Assembly: GCA_031763025.1 (NCBI GenBank) | Contig: JASSKH010000003.1 | Location: forward strand, 3,322,501-3,386,500 | From: Macrocystis pyrifera | Taxonomy: Eukaryota > Sar > Phaeophyceae > Laminariales > Laminariaceae | Direction: 5' to 3' | Length of the DNA: 64,000 bases | Shown here: positions 3,294-64,000 of the stretch, piece after piece | Numbering within the stretch: position 1 is the stretch's first letter | Layout: the number at the start of each line of letters is the position of its first letter | Notes under the pieces: generated by a model | What the model saw: the letters and a program-made list of their open reading frames with translations, nothing else | Database searches by the model: none | Told to the model about the DNA's origin: nothing | Translations under genes and position numbers: made by a program

Positions 3294-3592
3294 TACTTCG
3301 TGTGTGTGTGTGTGTTCTTCACATTAAACCGTTCTTCTACTCGTCGACATCCAGCAAGCCCAGTGTCCGTGCTGATTCTTCACCCTAGAAAGATACGAGC
3401 TCTGTGGTCACAGACTACGACACAGAGATAACACACCGTAATGCATTAATAGCCTACGTAATACCATGCCTTCGCACTAGGTGCGGCCGACACAACATAC
3501 ATACATACGCCAGCAACCAAAATACACCATAAAGAAAGAGCAGCAACGAAAAAACCAAACCGAAAAAGAACAAGAAAAAGAAAGTACCTCGT
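3294..3592 (-). mobile_element. LINE 3'-end fragment, copy 3
   Basis: The stretch 3299-3584 matches the 3' untranslated end of the LINE at 5225-7461, read on the minus strand and ending in a (CA)n tail (TG on the plus strand, 3301-3315). It is strongly 5'-truncated. A probable 8-bp target-site duplication with one mismatch flanks it: tacttcgt at 3294 and tacctcgt at 3585. Confidence 0.75.
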
Positions 3593-5224: not shown

Positions 5225-7461
5225 AGGCATATACACTCTTGTTTTGTCGGAAAAGAGGAACCGTTGGCATGCGTGCAAAGCGCTGTGTGGGGCATGTTGT
5301 ATGCAGACGACGCAGGAATAGTCTCGAAGTCGGCGGAAGGCCTTGCAAGAATGATGACGGTCATCGTGACTGTCTTCGAAGCAGTAGGTCTCACGGTATC
5401 CGAGAAGAAGTCAGCGACGATGCTCCTACGAACACCGGATCAGACGTTTACCACCTCACCGTTCGCGATCGAAGCTGCAGGCCAAAAGTATGAACAGACG
5501 ACCCAGTTTTTATACCTAGGAGGCATTATCCACGAGAACGCTGACCTCTCCTTCGAAATCGAGCGACGAATCCGTCTGATGCGGGCATGCCTCAAACGGT
5601 ATGGTCCGAAACTGTACGATAGGACGAACGCACGGCTTAGTCTGAAAGTCCGGATGCTGAAGGCCGAGGTGATTGAGACCTTGCTGTACGGTTGCGTGAC
5701 GTGGACCCTCAATGCGGACCACTTTGCCAAGCTTCGATCAGCCCACCACGAAGTCCTCCTGCGAGTCATTGGCTTCAAGCGCCGACTACGCACCGACCAC
5801 ACCACTGTGATGCGGGGACCGGTCTAGGGTAGTGGTAAGGGTAGTGGCAAGGGACGCAGGTTGTTCTGGCAGCTGGAAAGCAGTGCTTCGCTTCTTCTGA
5901 TTTAGATCTTCTTATTGATGGCGAGAGCTGAGGAGGTGCTCTGGTAGAGAAGTGAGAGGTAGGGGGGCGGGACTCGACGCCCAAATATACTCGTCCCACC
6001 TCACGCCACAAACTCTCCTAAATTCCTCTTATCTGATGTACTCCAACAGAACTTTCCTAATGGCTACCGATCGTTCTTCTGCTAATATAAGATCTTCTCA
6101 CTTCGTAGTCCTATCTGCATCACGGAACATTCCTAAAATAACGATACTCTCGACTACCGGAATATCCGCCGGGTTAATCCATTCTTTGGATTATTCTCGT
6201 ATTCGTGGAACTACAAGACTGCAACGTATTATCTATATCTATAGCCCATGAATACTCTACTCATATCACACCACCCTCTCGTATGCGAAGGCGCTCAGGA
6301 TAACACGATGCGAAAGTATCGAAACGACCATCCGTAAACGGCGACTCTTCTTTGCGGGGGCTCTGGTGCGGCAACACGAGGGGCGATTGCCCAGTCGGTT
6401 GATGTTCGGGACGATCGCTGGTGGGGGGAGCCCGAAACCAGGCGGGCAGCCCAAGACTTGGCCTAGGGCCATTACTGAGGACCTTAGAGTGTTCAAAGCC
6501 ACCGAGGGATCAACGGAAGACTCCCCCTTAGTCTTTGGAGTTGGGACCGCACTGTGGCCCACTGCAGCAAAACAGGCGGGAAAGTGGTACCGGGGAATCC
6601 TCGAAGCAGCTGAACAGTTCATGGGCAGGTGGCACGAGGCTGAGGCAAAGCTGAGTAGACAGCGCCGTGCACCCGCTGCAGGTAGTGTTAGAGGGAATGG
6701 GGGGAGGGGTAACAGCAGGAGGGGTAGAGGGAACACCGAACAAGTGTATGGGGGCAGGGGGGGGAACAGGAGGAGTAGAAGGGAAACCGCGGTAGAATAG
6801 AGTAGCAGAGAGACCGCAGATAGGGTAGCAAGGTACCAGGCCGACTAATAGGTTGGACTTTTCTTTGCTACTCGTACCGCCAACTGCTGCGGCCGTTCGG
6901 TATGTATTTTGATTTTTTTCCATGACTTAACTTTTTCCTATATTTTTCCCTTCTTATCCTTATGAAAGAAGTACTACATAGTGGGCGGGTGACGAGCGTA
7001 TTTTGGCCCACTCATTATTGCTCTTTTTACTTAGTTAAGTGTTCACCGGGATGCATAGTCCCCCCTTTTTCCTTCTCGTATCTTTCCCCTTGCACGTCCC
7101 TTTTGGCTCATGCTCGGGGTATGTATGTGTCTGAGCTTTGGCTTCTCATTTTATTTATTTGTTTGGGGCTCTTCTCCTTTTCCTTTTCTTTTTCTTTTTC
7201 GGTTTGGTTTCTTCGTTGTTTCTCTTTATGGTGTATTTTGGATGCTGGCGTATGTATGTATGTATGTTGTGTCGGCCGCATCTAGTGCGAAGGCATGGTA
7301 TTGCGTAGGCTATTAACGCATTACGGTGTGTTATCTCTGTGTCGTAGTCCGACCACAGAGCTCGTATCTTTCTAGGGTGAAGAATCAGCACGGACACTGG
7401 GCTTGCTGGATGTCGACGAGTAGAAGAACGGTTTAATGTGAAGAACACATACACACACACT
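5225..7461 (+). mobile_element. 5'-truncated LINE with RT C-terminus
   Basis: The frame from about 5240 carries the reverse-transcriptase active-site motif YADD (codons at 5300-5311), then the AGLTVSEKK-type and YLGGII motifs and an ETLLYGCVTW block typical of non-LTR endonuclease/RT proteins. The RRLFFAGALVRQHEGRLPSR C-terminal region lies at 6330-6400, beyond a 461-bp insertion (5806-6266). A Gly/Arg-rich tail ends at a stop at 6798-6800. The 3' untranslated region is long and pyrimidine-rich, and the element ends in (CA)n near 7461. The endonuclease and most of the RT are absent, so it cannot move by itself. The clade (RTE- or Jockey-like) is not resolved. Confidence 0.8.
5806..6266 (+). 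mobile_element. 461-bp insertion in the LINE, possible SINE
   Basis: The insertion is bounded by an exact 8-bp duplication, cacaccac, at 5798-5805 and 6267-6274. Dropping the insert and one copy makes the LINE protein read through smoothly from one side to the other. There are no terminal inverted repeats. Weak tRNA-like promoter motifs (tagggtagtgg near 5825; ggactcgac near 5969) suggest a SINE of a second family, but this is uncertain. Confidence 0.65.
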
Positions 7462-7659: not shown

Positions 7660-8650
7660 AAATCGTCGGAATGTCAAATCTTGTTTCGAAAAGTGACGCT
7701 TTCGTATACTTGGGCCATGGGATTATTCATCGGGATGCACTTGGATTTTTGACTGTGAAGTCAGTTTTCGGGTGGGGTATGTGGAGCTCCTTAAGTGAGG
7801 AGAGGTTCAGAAAAATTAGGGTGAACCCCTATCGTAGAACGCCTCATAACCAAGTGACGAATTAATCCAAATCATCCGTAAGTGTTGAGATTCACCCATC
7901 CATCGAGGCCACGGAGAAACCCTCGGCGGTTCTCAGGTACCTTTTGGTATCTGTTCTTCTGTCGAGTAGACGCGAGGCGCCAGTAGGCATCGGGCCAAAA
8001 CATGGCACGCATGCTGCGGAGAAGAGAGCAAGCAGCAGAAGAGCGACACGCGACGGCTGCAACTAACTGCGACACGAACCGTGGACACCAATGCACCCAG
8101 GGGACGGAGATACGGGCGGGGGCGGGGGGGGGGGGGGGGGGGGGGCGCTCTGTTCCAATTCTTGCCGACTGGGCATGGCATTCGTCATCATGATGCGTCC
8201 CTTCCCAGTGCTACAAGTAGCTATTAATAGCGTAGAGCCGTCGGGACTCTCTCGCCTGCCTCTACGAGTCCCTGCTTTTCGTTTTCCTCGTTTTTTCTTT
8301 CTTTCTTTTGTTCGTTTCTTTCTCGTTTTGTCGATTTTATCTTCTTATTCCGTTCTTTTTTTGTCCTGTTTAGCTCTTTCGGTTCGCTCTGGCTTTCGCG
8401 TTCGTTTGTTTCCTTTATTCCCTTTCTTTTGCTTTGCGTTGGTTTGTTTTGTGCGTGTACGTACGTACGTACGTAGCTTTTTTCTCCATGGGATTTGATT
8501 TGGTTCATTTCACTTTACTTTATTTAGTTGCAGTTTGTTCATCGTTTAGTTCTGCTTTTTCGCGTGCGGCCCCATTGGGTTTGGTTGAAAATCGTGCAAG
8601 GATTTGACTTTTTCCTTCTTGAGGTGTATGATGTGTTTCAGTCATGGGAT
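7660..8650. other. No gene; G-run and pyrimidine-rich DNA
   Basis: A 22-base G run occupies 8124-8145 and a (TACG)n tract lies near 8456-8476. The segment between is C/T-rich with chance frames only. The 8165-8230 segment resembles 285-330. Confidence 0.45.
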
Positions 8651-8654
8651 GTGT

Positions 8655-9464
8655 GTGTGTGTGTGTGTTCTTCACATTAAACCGTTCTTCTACTCGTCGA
8701 CATCCAGCAAGCCCAGTGTCCGTGCTGATTCTTCACCCTAGAAAGATACGAGCTCTGTGGTCACAGACTACGACACAGAGATAACACACCGTAATGCATT
8801 AATAGCCTACGTAATACCATGCCTTCGCACTAGGTGCGGCCGACACAACATACATACATACGCCAGCATCCAAAATACACCATAAAGAAAGAGAAGCAAC
8901 GAAAAAACCAAACCGAAAAAGAACAAGAAAAAGAAAAAGAAAAGGAGAAGAATCCCAAATAAATAAATAAAATGGGAAGCCAAAGCTCAGACACATACAT
9001 ACTTACCCCGAGCATGAGCCAAAAGGGACGTGCAAGGGGAAAGATACGAGAAGGAAAAAGGGGACTATGCATCCCGGTGAACACTTAACTAAGTAAAAAG
9101 AGCAATAGTGAGTGGGCCAAAATACGCTCGTCACCCACCCACTATGTAGTACTTCTTTCATAAGGATAAGAAGGGAAAAAAATCAAAATGCATACCGAAC
9201 GGCCGCAGCAGTTGGCGGTACGAGTAGCAAAGAAACGTCCAACCTATTAGTCGGCCTGGTACCTTGCTACCCTATCTGCGGTCTCTCTGCTACTCTCTTC
9301 TACCGCGGTTTCCCTTCTACTCCTCCTGTTCCCCCCCCTGCCCCTATACACTTGTACGGTGTTCCCTCTACCCCTCCTGCTGTTACCCCTCCCCCCATTC
9401 CCTCTAACACTACCTGCAGCGGATGCACGGCGCTGTCTACTCAGCTTTGCCTCAGCCTCGTGCC
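8655..9464 (-). mobile_element. LINE 3' fragment, copy 2
   Basis: This is the reverse complement of 6632-7461 of the LINE, covering the C-terminal Gly/Arg-rich codons and the whole 3' untranslated region. It ends in a (CA)n tail (TG on the plus strand, starting near 8653). It begins abruptly at ggcacgaggc, immediately after an A11 run that links it to a U2 snRNA copy. With copy 1 it forms an inverted repeat with arms of about 830 bp and a spacer of about 1.2 kb. Confidence 0.8.
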
Positions 9465-9475
9465 TTTTTTTTTTT

Positions 9476-9667
9476 GTCCCCGAGGGGACGGACCTCACAA
9501 GGCGGTAGTGAAATGCCGAGGAAATCCAGCCGGAACACTGCAAGCAGCGCTAAACCCGGCAGTTTCAAAAACAGGTGTGAAAATGACACTCGATGAGTGT
9601 CAATCAGTTTTCACACTGATTAGAACAGATACTACACATGATCTTAGCCAAAAGGCCGAGAAGGTAT
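9476..9667 (-). ncRNA. U2 spliceosomal snRNA copy (probably retrocopy)
   Basis: Read on the minus strand, the start ataccttctcggcc is followed by ttttggctaagatca, the nearly invariant 5' part of U2 snRNA. The branch-point-pairing motif GTAGTA follows at plus-strand positions near 9631-9636. Stem-loop IIa (atcagt...actgat), IIb (gacactc...gagtgtc), a U-rich Sm-like stretch (ctgtttttgaa) and two 3' stem-loops follow in the right order, for about 190 nt in all. Directly after its 3' end is an A11 run and then a LINE fragment. A reverse-transcribed copy is therefore more likely than the active gene. No promoter was recognised upstream. Confidence 0.85.
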
Positions 9668-9681
9668 ATGTGTAGTATCTG

Positions 9682-23928: not shown

Positions 23929-26900
23929 ATGTTGCGTCCATGCGGCATCGCCGGGTTTGTCCTGTTTGCCATCGTTTTTACGGAAAACGTCGCTGCCCAA
24001 GAAGAAAGTAGCTGCACGCTGGATCCTGCCCAGTTTGGCGGCGTTGGCGACGGCCAATGCGACGGGTATCTCAACACCTTGGAGTGCGGCTATATGACGG
24101 TGGAGATTGTTGTGAGTGTACGTGCGTCGAGGGTTCAACATTTTCATGCGGTCGTTCACCTTTCGTGTGTCTGGACCCCGCCTGCCCTGACGAAGCGTTC
24201 GAGTACCCGGCTTGCACCGGTGATATATACGCACTCGGTGACAGCCGCTGTGACAGCGAAAATAACTATGCGACGTGTGGATTCGACGGAGGGGACTGCT
24301 GCGAGTGTACATGCACCAATTCTACGAATACCTGTGGCACCGGATTTTCCGCCTTCGAATGTTTCGACCCCTCCTGTCCTGGCGAAGTTCACGAGCAAGC
24401 TCTCTTGTACCCCAACTGCACTGGATCCGTCTCCCTAACCGGTACCGGCTTCTGTCAGTCGTCCAACAACAACCCGTCGTGCGGGTACGACGGGGGCGAC
24501 TGCTGTGCATGCACTTGCGTCGATGGGCCGGAGTTTTCCTGCGGTTCCAACGGTCTCAACTGCCTTGACCCCGCATGCCCGGACGAAGCAAGTCCACACG
24601 TGGACACCTGCACCGGAGACGTCCTGACTTTTGGTGATGCCTGGTGTGATGAAGAAAATAATAACCCAAGTTGTGGGTACGACGGGGGCGACTGCTGCGC
24701 CTGTACCTGCGTTGACACCGAGACACGGCAGTGCGGCATTCTTGAGTTTCCCTGCGTGGATCCCAACGCCGCCGGTGAGTTCTTCGACTGTCTCCAAGAT
24801 CCGGCCGTCTCCCCCTGCCCGAAAGACGTTCAGTCTAATTGGGTGGTGGAGGACACGACGGCGGCAACGGCATTGGCAGAAGCAGTTGAATGCTCAGGGG
24901 GGAGTTTTACAGTGGAATGGATTGGAACTGTCTGGGTTAATCGGACGATCTACGTCCCAAGCGGAACAGTTCTCAACATCACTGGGAGCGAATCGGACGC
25001 TGGCCTGGACGGGAACGCGAGCACCCGTCTTTTTACCGTTACCAACGGCTCTTTGCATCTCACCAACCTGCATCTCAGCAACGGTCGTTCAGCCGTGGGC
25101 GGGGCGATCGCTGCGTCTGGGTCGTCTGTGGTTCTGGATACTATAACTTTCGATGGTAACGGCGCCTCTAACGACGGCGGTGCACTGTACACTACTGCTG
25201 AAACGCTCGTTTCGTGGAGCGGGACGACCCAGTTTATCTACAACATCGCCGTCAATAGAGGCGGAGGCGGCGCTTTTTATGGCGGCTCCCGTGCTACTTG
25301 GACCGGTGAGACGGTGTTTTACAGAAACAGTGCCATGGACGGGGGTGCCCTGTACGCGACCCGCGGCTCGATCGTATCTAGCGACGGGACAACCACGTTT
25401 GCCAACAACAACGCGGGTTCTTATGGGGGCGCGCTTTATGCGTCGTCGGCGTCACTAGTAACCGGCACCGGGGACTTCTCATTCCTCGGAAACACCGGTT
25501 GGAGAGGCGGTGCTCTGTCCGTTCAGAACTCTACTGACGTTTCATGGGACGGAACAATGACCTTCCACGACAACTGGTCAAGCTACGCCGGTGGGGGGGC
25601 GTATGCTGACAGCGGATCAAGTATCTCATGGAATGGCAACGTGACTTTCTCGGAGAATGTGGCCGGGTTTGGGGGCGCTCTGTTTGTTTCAGAGGCGTCA
25701 AGTGTGTCCTGGACCGGAGAGATGACCTCGCATACGAGCAACACCGCTACCTCCAACGGAGGTGCACTGTACGTTGACGGCGGCTCCAGCATTTCATGGA
25801 CCGGGCACACGTCTTTCGTCAGCAACAAAGCGTATTTCGTATATGGGTCTAGTTATTTCTCCGAGACCAGTATTGATGCTGCCGGGGGTGCGCTGTTCGT
25901 TGCTGGGGGCTCTGACGTTTTCGGGAGCGGAGATACCATGTTTTCCACGAACTCTGCCAGTATTGGAGGTGCTCTGGCTATCGAAGGTAGTTCCATTATT
26001 CTCTGGACCAGACCGATAACATTCGACGGTAACGACGCCATTCTTGATGGGGGCGCTTTGCATGTCGGTGGATCATCCGTGTCTTGGCTGAATGACGCAA
26101 CATTCTCTCAGAACACAGCTGGTAGGCTGAGCGCGGGGGGCGCCGTCTTCGCTTGCAATAGCTCCGATATTTCATGGAGTGGTCCTACAACCTTCACAGA
26201 AAACAACTCTTCATTGGGAGGAGGGTTGTTTGCGAAAGAAAACTCCTCGCTTTCTTGGAGTGGGAACACCACGCTCTCGCGAAACCGCGCTACGTTTAGC
26301 GGAGCTGCTATATATGCCAGCGACGGCTCGACCTTGTCCTGGGAAGTGGATACGATTTTCAAGGACAACTTGGCCTTCGAGTCTGGCGGCGCTCTATGTA
26401 TCGTTGACCACTCTAACGTATCGTGGAGCGCGAAAACAACCTACGACAACAACACCGCCGACTTCGGCGGGGCCATCTTCATGGGGTATGATTCCACCGT
26501 AGCCTGGAATGGGGACACCGTATTCACATCCAACACGGCTCATTCCAACGGGGGCGCTGTAGGATCATCGGTGTCGGACGCTGGATTAGGCCCTTCTTCC
26601 ATGTTCATCAACGGTTCAACCACGTTTATGGATAACAGATGTGGAGCGAGCGGAGGCGGACTTGCGGTCGTCGGAGCGCTGCTGATGGCGTTTGAGACCA
26701 CCAACATTACTTTTTCCGGGAACGTTGCAGAGGTTGGTGGAGGAGCGGTGTTTGTTTCGGGAGCCGGTATTGGCCCGGTGTTCAGGGGCGTGAGGTTTAT
26801 TTCGAACTCTGCCGAGATTGGGGGTGCGGTGTACACCACAGGAACCGGAACCGCGCTCACTAAAGATGAGAGAGGTAATCCTAAACCAAACCCGTCTACG

Positions 26901-29900
26901 TCAGACCGATGCGAGTATATCAGCAACACGGCAACGGCAACCGGAGGGGCGGTGGAGAGCGGAGCAGGCCTAGATTTATTCAACAACACGCTGTTCAAAG
27001 GGAATAGAGCAGGGGTTGGAGGAGCTTTGAGGCTTGCGGGCATGGCGTCTCTAGACAACTGCTTCTTCATCGAGAACACGTCGGACAACGAGCAGGGCCG
27101 GCAGTATCCAACATTGGATCAATTTCGAGCTTATCCGATACAACCTTCGTCCACAACGTATTTGCTTGCGAGCCAGGGATGTATCTCGAATACGACGACG
27201 AGGTGAGTCGCGACGTTCGTTTGAGTGCATGTCGCTTACATACCACTAGATGCACGCGGTGTGAACTAGGATGGGGAAGGAGGGGCCGCTTGCGATTGAC
27301 GCGCCCTTTTTGACCACGTCGGTCGACCTTCACTACAGCAGGAGTAGCACTTAATTTTGGTGCGGCTTCTCGTTTTAGGAGCTATTTACCTCACCCGAAA
27401 TTTGAGAAAAAATGCCGAGCCAAGTCCGATACCCAATCCCATGGGGCTCGTACGTATATCCCTGGTAGGTGGATTGCGAAAAGTAGTACAATATACACAT
27501 CGGACCCGAAGACAATGGGTAGCTGCTCAGTTGAGGACCCCTGTCAAAGAGAAATATTTGGGCTCAAAAGTGTAACCCCAACACCCTGCCGTAGCACGGG
27601 CCTTTTTGTGTACAATCCTGGCACATGGTTTGTAATTATGACCGCTTCCTTTCGACCGGCCTTGACGTGTCACAGCATGTCGCCCTGTTGGAGACTGTCT
27701 GCAACGGATGCACCACACCATGTGCCGGTGGCGGTTGCGACATCGTCGGCCAAGAGCCAAGCTGCTTGGAGCAACCCGCGCATTCTAACAGCACTGGCGG
27801 TGATGTCAACGTGACGACGCTTTTGATCGAAAAGGGGTATTGGCGAGCCACGACGGTCAGCACAGGAATTTTCGAATGTTTCAATACCAATGCATGCCAG
27901 GGGGGGACCACGGGATCTTCTGGCTACTGCAGCGATGGGTATGCCGGGCCATGTGAGTAGCAAACGACCCGGCCTGAGAGCGTCGGCGACTATTCATGGT
28001 AACACGCGAGGCAAAGCCTGGCACGACGACGCCTTTCGGAGGACACTTGTCTCATACTGCAGCCATCATAGGCGCCCGTGAAAGGTATAAACCCCAGAGT
28101 CACGCCCCAGCAGAGGGGGTGCCTACAATATCGATGCTTCTGAGGTCTCTATACCTCGCTCAAAACTCGACTTTGACAAATGCGCGAGCCGACGAACGTT
28201 AGGCTATATACACAGCGCGTGCAACGAGTACCATAGTAGCGTAACTAAATGCGGTTGCGAGTACATTGATGTAGTTCCTCAGACGAGAATCCCCATCCGT
28301 CAGCACACAAGCTGCGGTAACATAGCTTTTACGGTTTCATGAGACTCCAAACTTGAGCTTCACACACCTCGCCCAACGACCGACTTCGAGATAGCTTGGG
28401 AGCGAAGCCCGATACGCGGTCGAATGGGGCTAATAGGTACCTACCAGATTACCTGGCATGTCGTAAGATATAGCATCGGCGACAAGTATTGGGGCTTAGC
28501 CCATTTACTATTGCACTGCAAACACACACATATATCTAATCCCAATTCCAAGCTAATTGTCCCCAAACAGGCAGTGCAGTTTTAAAGGGGTTAAACATGC
28601 AACCCCTACCTAAACAAGGCTCTCAGAACTTTTTGGTCTAGATCCCTTGTAGATGAGGAGCCCCATTAGTCAGGACGTGTTGGGCCGAAACGTACCCCCG
28701 CCCCCGCCCCCAACCGCATTGTAGAGACATGGCTTCACTTTCAACCTAGCACCCTCCCTCCCTCCCTCCCCCTATTTTCGTCCCCTGGCGATCCTTTCTG
28801 CACAGATTGTTCCGTGTGCAGCGACGGGTACGCTGCTGGTGCTCACAATACATGCGCCCAGTGCTCCGACAATACCGGTGCCGTTGTGCTCATGGTCGTT
28901 CTTGCGTTTTTGTCGATTTTGGCGGTGGTTGCCTTCCTGTACTACCTCGTGTCCACCGAGATGGAGGGCGATGAACAGGGGCTACTGGCTGGCTTGATGA
29001 AGCGCATCCCGCTTCAATCTTTCAAGATCATCATCGTGACGTGGCAGATATTGACGCAGGTGCGCTCTGAAAAAGCTAGCTGCACTCTTGAGGCGCTCTG
29101 GATTTTTGTGCGTGCGCGAAATGCCTGGTCGAGAGATCGGGCGCCAAGGTGCCTCACCCTGCGCTTCGACGCCAAAGTCCTTGCTTCTGTATCTCCGCCG
29201 TACTGTAGCCAATCGAACCCAGTTATGGAAATCGTATGCGCGATCCAGATGTTCCCCTTTTGACACGATACTGATCACCCTCCACAACAATACCGTCGCT
29301 GCCTCTTTGCCAAAATCCAGTTTTCGGATATTGCGAACGTGATCTACCCAGATGTTTACTCCGACTTCCTGGACGGTATTGCCCTTCTTAACTTCGACTT
29401 GGGCTGGGTGCTCTCGACAGCGTGTGTCGTCGATACCGACTTCCACGACCGCCTGCTTATTTCTACGATAGGCCCTCTCGTGTGCGTGGTAATCCTCGCA
29501 GCTACGTACGCCATTGCGATGCACCGCAACCGGGGGTCAGACGCTGGCCGAGCAAACGTCCACCACAGGCACTTGTCTACGCTGCTCTTCCTGTCATTTT
29601 TCGTGTACTCGTCGGTCACTTCCACGCTTTTCCGTATGTTTGCGTGCGAGAAGCTCGACGACGGTAATGAATATCTGCGCGCCGACTACCGAATCGAATG
29701 CGACTGGGCCAAACACGAAGCCCTGCAGGTTTACGCAGGCTTCATGATCGCTCTGTACACGGTAGGGATTCCATTCGTTTATGCAGTCCTCCTACTCAGG
29801 AATCGTGAAGTGCTGGCGGATAAGGCCCTACGCATGCAAGATCAGCATGCAAACACCATCTCCGATCTATGGGGGCCGTACAAACCCGATCGGTTCTACT

Positions 29901-60599: not shown

Positions 60600-63500
60600 A
60601 TAAAGAAACTCATCAGACCACGTGGTGGTCAGGGCATCCAGGCTTGGACTCTACGAACACACTAGTGTTCTTGAACGTTTGAGGTCTGGTACCAGAAGCC
60701 AACGATGCCCTCGAAGGGATCGGCTCAAGAAGGGCGCGACTCTCCAATTGACGTTGAAACGCTGCGACGCGAGGTCAAGCTGGCGATGGAGAAAAGAGAG
60801 GCGTCGATGCTGAACGCCATGAGGGAAATGATGACCGAGTTCATGAGGAACAACGGTCGATCGGAGCCAGGCAGCGCTGAAGGCAGCGTTGCTGTAGGAG
60901 AAAGTCCAGCAGAGGTAGGAACCACTGCCGTAGGGGAAAGCCCAAGAGGGGCAGTACCCACTGCCGAAGTACGAGAGACTACTGCTGCTGTTGAAGCAGG
61001 CATTGGTCGATCGGAGTCCGGCAGCGCTGAGGGTGGCGCTGCTGTAGGGGAGAGCCCACAAAGGGCAGTACCCACTGCTGTAAGAGAGATTGCAGCAGAA
61101 CAAGAGACAAATTTGCGTGAGGGCGCCTCGCCAGATTTGGGAGCAACTTGACGCGGAGGAACTGCGTTGCCTGTCGAGGTTGGTCCACCGAGGGGTCATC
61201 CAGACCAGCATGGGAGGACAGGAGGATGGGATGCATACCCTGGCGGTGAGTTGGGTGGTGGATTTGATCTGCCTCTATCGCGCCATTTGGCCTTCAAACA
61301 CACTCCTGTGCCATCGTTTAGTGGGCTAAAATCTGAGTTCAACCCCTGGACAAGAGATGCTCGGTATTACGCCAAAGGAGTTGGTTTCTTGTCTGCTTTC
61401 GTGTCGGATCCACCACAGTACATTCCCGTAGGGGAATTAGACACCGAAAACTCGATGGGTTCGTCTCAAGGGGGCGCCGTGGACGCCTCCTCGGTCCCGG
61501 CAGGGAGGGCCGAAACAGCCGAGACGATGGGTTCGTCTCAAGGGGGCGCCGTGAACGCCTCCTCACTTCCGGCACGTGGGGTTTTGACCTGGACGCGTTT
61601 ATGCTGGAGCGCGCACAGCAGGCACCTGCCGCCGGCGAGGCCGGCGGCGAAACACCCGAGACGATGCGTTCGTCTCAAGGGGGCGCCGTGGACGCCTCCT
61701 CGGTCCCGGCAGGGAGGGCCGAAACACCCGAGACGATGGGTTCGTCTCAAGGGGGCGTCGTGGACGCCTCCTCGGTCCCGGCAGGGAGGGCCGAAACACC
61801 CGAGACGATGGGTTCGTCTCAAGGGGGCACCGGGGACGCCTCCTCGGTCCCCGCAGGGAGGGCCGAAACAGCCGAGACGATGGGTTCGTCTCAAGGGGGC
61901 ACCGTGGACGCCTCCTCGGTCCCAACAGGGAGGGCCGGAAACGACCCGGGCGCAGCATCAGCCTCCGACACCGTCCAAGGGAACGGTGAGGATCCCCCCG
62001 CGGTCCTGTCGGGGAGGACCGCACACGAGCTCAGCAGCTGGGGCCGGCTCCCCCCGACAGTACGGGGCCGGACCCGGGGTCAAAGCCAACGCCTGGAGGG
62101 TGAACCTGCTGTGCACCAGGTAAGGATGGATGAAGGAGCCGCAGACGCGCTGCTTGCGGTAGCGTACGAGTCGTGGACGAAGCCTGGGAGTATGCTGGAT
62201 CGTACGTCTTGGACGACGGAGGACGCAGTGGCTTTGATGGCCGGAGGACCTGCTGTGGAGAACAAAGGGAAGTTGAGCGTGTGCATGCCGAGTGGTTTCC
62301 CGGAAGACGTAGAACCGCCCCCACAGTCCGTAGCAGATGTAGAGCGTTCTCAATACAAAGCGGCGTGGCACGAGGCCATGAAAATTGAGTTGGACGGTCA
62401 CAAAACGACCGGTACGTACGAAGCCGCGACACCGCCAAAAGGGCGGAAACCTGCAGGTGCGAAGTGGGTGTTTACCTACAAGACGGATAAGGATGGCTTG
62501 ATAGTAAAGACAAAGGCCAGACTTGTGGCTAAGGGTTTTAGCCAGGTGCAGGATGTAGATTATTTTCAAACGTTTGCACCAACTCCCTCGTCAGCGTCAG
62601 TTAAAATTCTGGCGGCTGTTGCAAATGAACATGGTTTAAAGATTTTTCATCTAGACGTCGCACAAGCTTTTGTTCGCGCGAAACTCGACGCCGAGATATA
62701 CATGAAACTGCCCGGTGGGTGTGGTGACATGTCAGGAAAGATCGTCCGCCTAAACAGATCACTGTATGGTCTAAAGCAGAGCGGACGGCAGTGGGCCGGA
62801 TTATTGCTAGAGACCGTGGTAGAGTACGGAATGGAGCAGTGTATGTCTGACCCGTGTGTGTTTCGCATGGTTGTGGACGGCAAGGTAGAACTGATCATGG
62901 CCGTTCATGTAGATGACATCGTGATCGCAGGATCGGATGAGACATGTAGAGATTTCCATGCCGCGCTAGCTATGAAATTTCCCACGAATAACCTTGGCGA
63001 ACTGACTTGGTACTCTGGTTGTGCTTTCAAACGCGACTGGGAACTGGGGACATTGGAGATTACGCAGAAGGCGTTCATTGAGAGCATGCTGAATCATTTT
63101 GGTGTTAACTCATCCTCTGATATCCCCGCGACCCCCGGTGTGGAACTAGGTCCAAGAGAGGAGGGCGAACTTGGAGGAGACTGGCCGTACAGGGAGGCTG
63201 TGGGCAGCTTGATGTGGCTGTCGACCATGACGAGGCCGGACATCTCGAACGCTGTGCGTGCTGTGGCGCGCCACTCCCAGAACCCAACGGAGAGGCACTG
63301 GAAGGCAGTTTTGAAGATTATGGCTTACCTCCACGGGACCAGGTTTATGGGATTGACTTTTGTACGGGGCTCGGGTTTGGATTTGACTGCGTATAGTGAT
63401 GCTGATTATGCGGACAAGTCGAACGATAGGCGCTCGGTATCGGGGACGGTAATTACCCTAGGGGGTGCGGCCGTCAGTTGGGCAAGTAGTACGCAGAGGT

Positions 63501-64000
63501 GTGTTACGTTGTCGACAGCAGAAGCAGAGTATGTCGCCCTGGGTGAAGGGGTGAAGGAAGCTTTGTTTACGGGCGCGGTGTTGTCGTTTATCTGTCCAGA
63601 GCTAAGCGGATCATGTGTCCGGGTTTTCGAGGATAACCAGGGGGCCATAGCGTTGGCTGAAAACCCTCTTAGTTCTGCTCGGAGTAAGCATATCGACGTG
63701 CGTTTTCATTTTGTCAGAGAGCTACTTCGTGCTAAGAAGATCGACATTCAGTTGGTAGCTTCGGAAGAGCAGCACGCGGATATTTTGACGAAATCCCTTG
63801 CTGCGACCCCTTTTAAGTCTCATCGTAGGTTCTTGTTGAATCTGCCTTTGGAGGGTGAGTGAGGGGTATGAGCATTATTCGATGAGTACCGTGTTTGAGT
63901 GATGCGAGGAATAATTTGTCAGGTCGCCAACCCTGCGCTACTTTGAGGGGCATGGGGAAGTAGGGCACCGCTTGGCATTTTATTTTCTGGCCATGGTCAT
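60600..64000 (+). mobile_element. Copia-type LTR retroelement fossil
   Basis: The element runs off the window. Parts seen in order: a primer-binding-site-like motif, tggtaccagaagcc, near 60690; a gag-like start at 60705 (MPSKGSAQEGRD); a 72-bp tandem repeat region at 61450-61940; and Copia reverse transcriptase (AKWVFTYK, LDVAQAFVRA, HVDDIVIAG) and RNase H (AYSDADYA, then STAEAEYVAL and DILTKSLA) to a stop at 63860-63862. The 5' LTR probably occupies about 60160-60680, and the 3' LTR, if present, is beyond 64000. The RT/RNase H half looks well preserved, while the rest does not look whole, with a few breaks. It is younger than the fossil at 20.3-22.7 kb. Confidence 0.8.
61450..61940 (+). repeat. 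72-bp tandem repeat inside the Copia fossil
   Basis: The unit begins gagacgatgggttcgtctca and recurs exactly every 72 bp at 61658, 61730, 61802 and 61874, with an outlying pair at about 61449 and 61521. It encodes 24 residues per unit (ETMGSSQGG...VPAGRA). Unit copies differ by only a few bases, so the expansion is recent. Confidence 0.85.

Follow-up and report, generated by a model that had tools for sequence, protein, structure and literature searches.

The window, by which we mean the whole stretch of 64,000 nucleotides analysed, carries on its minus strand a full-length U2 snRNA copy joined, through seven bases and a run of 11 A, to the 3′ part of a LINE. Read 5′ to 3′ on that strand, the order is GATACT ACACAT, U2, CGGGGAC, A11, LINE with a (CA)n tail ending in ACACAT, and then CCCATGACTG. 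The features on which the argument draws are as follows.

9668–9673, minus strand: putative target-site duplication, 5′ copy (ACACAT), adjoining the U2 5′ end; all 6 nt recur at the end of the CA tail
9483–9667, minus strand: full-length U2 snRNA copy
9476–9482, minus strand: CGGGGAC, seven bases separating the Rfam match from the A-run
9475–9465, minus strand: A11 at the joint
8655–9464, minus strand: LINE 3′ part, 5′-truncated, including the greater part of the (CA)n tail; the BLAST match extends to 8653
8649–8654, minus strand: ACACAT, 3′ copy, which overlaps the last bases of the CA tail; within this repeat, tail and target cannot be told apart
5240–7461, plus strand: longer LINE copy, 5′-truncated and interrupted, with the 7-nt repeat ACACTCT at both ends
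3300–3583, minus strand: third LINE 3′ copy, short, flanked by ACGAGGTA and ACGAAGTA

The U2 copy (9667–9483) matches the Rfam model RF00004 over its entire length (positions 1–192 of 192) with 144 bits and an E-value of 1.7e-29, the gathering threshold of the model being 46 bits, and no other Rfam match in the 64 kb window reaches the gathering threshold. A sequence-only reading of this DNA had described a nearly complete U2 on the minus strand; the cellular-RNA part of the chimera is indeed there, and it is a full-length copy. Its stems are kept, both in the Rfam alignment and in the fold, and U2 together with the next 18 bases has a fold z-score of −4.84, better than 200/200 shuffled sequences.

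Stem IIa, however, deviates from the Rfam consensus. Decay was considered as the cause and rejected: U2 positions 39–59 are identical in 21/21 bases to the Phytophthora sojae U2 fragment of PMC4640811 (papers are cited here by PMC identifier and through excerpts, to which statements about them are confined). Because of this identity, the stretch looks typical of stramenopiles rather than decayed, and this match, the one pointer to the host in the analysis, would fit a stramenopile. Two further bases depart from the Rfam consensus, T instead of A at U2 position 30 (window position 9638) and a G preceding the U-run of the Sm-like site (window position 9572); either could be decay or lineage-typical. 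A pattern for the U2 5′ core gave 0 matches in viral_contigs and hit three contigs labelled as MAGs in genome_contigs, 3/3 with Rfam U2 matches. Two of these were aligned and proved unsuitable as a reference for the host U2, since position 30 is the usual A in both and their stem IIa differs; the third, which ends after model position 76, was left out of the comparison.

The fused LINE part is 5′-truncated, has the same orientation as U2 and reaches the LINE 3′ end. That it belongs to the same LINE as the longer copy, as had been proposed from the letters alone, is borne out: by BLAST, 9464–8653 matches 6631–7460 at 91.7% identity with gaps, and a global alignment of 9464–8681 with 6631–7434 has 749 matches, 19 mismatches and 52 gap columns over 820 columns. 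The fused part likewise ends in (CA)n, a tail that by eye runs to 8650. The longer copy had been placed at 5225–7461; the identification stands, but the copy probably starts at 5240, judged by the repeat ACACTCT. Its reading frame is interrupted and gives a partial RVT_1 match (E = 4.4e-06, 27 bits) below the Pfam cut-off of 29.6, and the copy has what we take to be an RTE-like look. For the LINE protein (P0001), 12 pattern matches were found in viral_contigs, of which 0 were confirmed, and 0 sequences in the PDB; an exact pattern for the LINE 3′ end had 0 matches in viral_contigs and 0 in genome_contigs.

The third copy, absent from the earlier reading, differs from the fused copy in 2 of 284 bases (3583–3300; 99.3% identity). 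This closeness suggests recent activity of the LINE, and the two copies would form one young subfamily. Since the fused part starts with GGCACGAGG, which presumably resembles a cDNA-library adaptor, a cloning-adaptor artefact was considered; it was ruled out by the same letters inside the reading frame of the longer copy, at 6631.

A stretch of some 470 bases at about 5806–6274 (plus strand) breaks the longer copy and is bounded, by eye, by CACACCAC at 5798–5805 and 6267–6274. It contains TAGTGGTAAGG, which we take to look like a tRNA-type box; no inverted repeats with a minimum length of 10 were reported in 5800–6300, and the insert may be a SINE. Elsewhere in the window, an open frame at 61337–63862 (plus strand) has a strong match (E = 2.8e-51) to RVT_2, the reverse transcriptase of Copia type, and overlaps a 72-base tandem array at 61453–61948. 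A frame of 1064 codons at 24012–27206 (plus strand) combines repeats of the Chlamydia-PMP type with a Notch LNR domain.

The joint was previously described as U2 followed directly by A11. The run does consist of exactly 11 A, and is one of 3 A/T runs of at least 11 in the window, but the seven bases CGGGGAC lie between it and the Rfam end. Because they do, contact between U2 and the A-run is not established, and the joint with the LINE part is direct only if CGGGGAC and A11 both belonged to the U2 RNA. In the minimum-energy fold, CGGGGAC and the last U2 bases form a 5-bp terminal hairpin, and the seven bases are possibly a 3′ extension of pre-U2. With the A-run as a possible record of an adenylated U2, the U2 RNA would have carried CGGGGAC as a brief 3′ extension and A11 as its oligo(A) tail.

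Mapping the target-site duplications, a check put forward with the sequence-only reading, places ACACAT outside both U2 and the LINE part, while the inner joint scores 0: the bases directly before the LINE part show no match to the 3′ flank, and the U2 flank has no match longer than 3 nt to the bases just after U2. One result points in the opposite direction, a 4-nt match (TCCC, 2 bases short of the U2 Rfam end, recurring in the 3′ flank), and is read as chance. That a single target-site repeat encloses both parts, with none immediately ahead of the LINE, is evidence of only moderate strength for a chimera. The outer 6-nt match is equalled at 127 of 19982 random window positions; in a second count, 686 of 127931 were as good, 621 of these crossing the repeat edge.

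The other copies have comparable repeats. For the longer copy (ACACTCT/ACACTCT, 7 nt), 53 of 1500 random trials were as good with 47 possible ends allowed, and for the short copy ACGAGGTA/ACGAAGTA contain a possible 8-nt target repeat with 1 mismatch, for which 250 of 19982 random positions were as good. Mismatched pairings of flank and tail scored 0 in 5/5 cases and in 1 further valid pairing. The repeats of all three copies begin with AC at the tail; weak singly, they would jointly describe a LINE that leaves repeats of 6–8 nt beginning with AC, which is what is expected if a LINE RNA ending in CA pairs with the nicked target. Short repeats also have a precedent: among 40 platypus U6/L2 chimeras, 72.5% have target repeats of 1–9 bp, and these are linked to the simple-repeat 3′ end of L2 (PMC4476161).

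On this basis we believe, with a probability of roughly 0.7, that U2, A11 and the LINE part are one unit, inserted by target-primed reverse transcription with a template jump from the LINE RNA to a U2 RNA. Insertion in one step is favoured because the outer ACACAT flanks the whole unit, no repeat stands directly before the LINE part and the other LINE copies are similar; it is graded as probable, not proven, because the repeat has only 6 nt. Anatomy, order and orientation are directly visible: U2 and LINE point the same way, the LINE is truncated on its 5′ side and the U2 5′ end abuts the outer repeat directly. The same anatomy, a full-length cellular RNA and a 5′-truncated LINE in one orientation between flanking repeats, is described for fungal chimeras (PMC2104539). 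The template jump had already been offered from the letters alone and is the best supported reading, tempered by the shortness of the repeat.

The events would have run as follows. The LINE would nick its target, and the (CA)n end of its RNA would pair with a TGTG end of the nicked strand. After copying about 810 bases of LINE RNA, the enzyme would switch to a U2 RNA, starting at its 3′ end, where a short extension would have been followed by about 11 A; this RNA would have been adenylated and perhaps still a precursor. It would copy this RNA through to its 5′ end, and the product would be sealed in with ACACAT left on both sides.

Some observations speak against a template jump. The outer repeat is short and partly CA repeat, and A11 with the seven preceding bases interrupts the joint, whereas a direct joint with no added bases is a common feature of published chimeras (PMC2104539). 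Furthermore, in PMC4476161 a U6atac/Alu pair is read as possibly two events, the U2/L1 case is inverted, and the poly(A)-tailed share of the copies analysed is 54% for U1 and 0% for U2.

A rival account of the A-run overlaps with the template-jump reading, for only the A11 step is at stake. The 11 A may have come from a source other than the U2 RNA, being added by the enzyme before the jump, gained by later slippage, or read through from a genomic A-run downstream of a U2 gene; we put the chance of this just short of even. Homopolymers slip, and slippage could have lengthened the run. Addition by the enzyme would fit the untemplated short stretches known at LINE-1 joints in four mRNA chimeras (PMC13174262), but 11 identical bases are, in our judgement, long for untemplated addition. 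Speaking for the RNA itself as the source, precursors of small RNAs, including snRNAs, are extended and often oligoadenylated in human cells whose trimming enzymes are depleted or mutated (PMC7328512). We offer only tentatively, as something we would rather doubt than assert, the fuller version of the template-jump reading, in which the joint would be the fossil of a 3′-extended, oligoadenylated U2 precursor, caught at a nuclear target by a CA-tailed LINE. It would then document, for a stramenopile, the tailing of snRNAs as well as template jumping by a LINE, and could have the makings of a U2-headed SINE family in that host.

That U2 and the LINE arrived separately we consider unlikely. A U2 gene or an A-tailed U2 retrocopy would have come first, with the LINE inserting later at the end of the A-run, and both parts of this history have something to recommend them: the stems of the U2 copy are preserved as in a genuine gene, and an A-run after U2 has the look of an A-tailed snRNA retrocopy (PMC4476161). 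The U6atac/Alu pair, for which the authors of that paper allow two events, has one extra A at its joint and no target repeat, but the U2-LINE unit does have a short outer repeat. A later LINE insertion is opposed by the bases directly before the LINE, which share no repeat with the 3′ flank, though the other two copies have repeats at their 5′ ends; the repeat that does exist, ACACAT, lies outside U2.

We regard it as improbable that the jump happened once, elsewhere, and that the unit belongs to a U2-headed, SINE-like family mobilised by the LINE through a shared 3′ end. The layout itself invites the comparison, since an snRNA head with a LINE-like tail is reportedly that of the SINEU elements, said to have been described by Kojima in 2015. 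SINEU elements resemble the chimera in this head and tail but form a repeat family, and here a single U2 is present in the 64 kb window. SINEU occurs as a class name and a reference in PMC5753468. In Ectocarpus, an abundant element of about 600 bp, shorter than the U2-LINE unit with its 1 kb or so, carries a 3′ end like that of RTE-X after a 5′ region whose origin is unknown (PMC12477816). Searches of viral_contigs and genome_contigs with exact patterns turned up no copy, a result of little weight, as the host is not expected there, and the 1015-base chimera had no match among plasmids and phages in a distant-mode search.

Finally, a target-specific insertion of the Utopia or Keno type at a U2 gene, or an assembly artefact, has next to no chance of being the explanation: Utopia is present in oomycetes, which are stramenopiles too, and Phytophthora arrays have intact U2 genes on the upstream side of Utopia copies (PMC4640811), but in these elements U2 typically comes after the LINE 3′ end (in Phytophthora from nucleotide 39 on), and here 0/3 LINE 3′ ends are followed by U2, the window has the bases from nucleotide 39 at a single place, within the U2 copy itself, and the outer repeat argues against an artefact of assembly. 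With no U2 downstream of the LINE, a Utopia or Keno insertion was ruled out by the definition in PMC4640811.

Chimeras of snRNAs and LINEs are already known, and the U2-LINE unit would add a case with an unusual A-run joint. The sequence-only reading had limited the precedents to U6 and L1 in mammals; U6/L1 chimeras are well established, but the limit was too narrow, for chimeras of U6 with L2 and RTEX and a U2/L1 chimera are also in print (PMC4476161), and the known partners of L1 comprise the U1, U2, U4, U5 and U6 snRNAs, U3 and 5S (PMC13174262). In a literature search from which subscription journals were mostly absent, we found no paper on a template-switch chimera of an snRNA and a retrotransposon in an alga, nor such a fusion in the titles of brown-alga papers touching on U2 snRNA or in excerpts of two of them (PMC4247016 and PMC11449341). 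Among the LINE groups of Ectocarpus, RTE-X has the highest copy number (PMC12477816), and in the main text of that paper "snRNA" and "template switch" are absent as whole words.

If the template-jump reading is right, the unit would extend chimeras of this kind, described in the papers cited here from vertebrates and, as a fungal relative, from Magnaporthe, to what is probably a stramenopile and to U2 in sense and in its entirety. Should the A-run have been on the RNA, such joints would reveal how U2 RNAs of the past ended at their 3′ side, in lineages whose snRNA processing is little studied.

The U6/L1, U6/L2 and U6/RTEX chimeras (PMC4476161) resemble the unit in having the snRNA 5′ of a LINE 3′ part and in their explanation by template switching, and, for LINEs with a simple repeat as their 3′ end, in their short target repeats; they differ in the snRNA, here U2, in the A11 and seven bases at the joint, and in the host, here probably a stramenopile. 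Utopia and Keno also bring U2 and a LINE side by side, but with U2 typically 3′ of the LINE (PMC4640811), where the LINE described here has none. The WEIRD/MGL elements of Magnaporthe (PMC2104539) are, like the unit, fusions of a non-mammalian LINE with a non-coding RNA, but the RNA is a different one and there are 33 bipartite elements with jump hot spots, compared with one copy in the window. Mammalian U2/L1 chimeras (PMC4476161, listed in PMC13174262) likewise join U2 and a LINE in one insertion; in PMC4476161, U2 is inverted and 3′-truncated, in a twin-priming-like arrangement, while here it is sense and full length. The less usual features of the U2-LINE unit are its sense, full-length U2, the A-run at the joint and a host that is probably a stramenopile.
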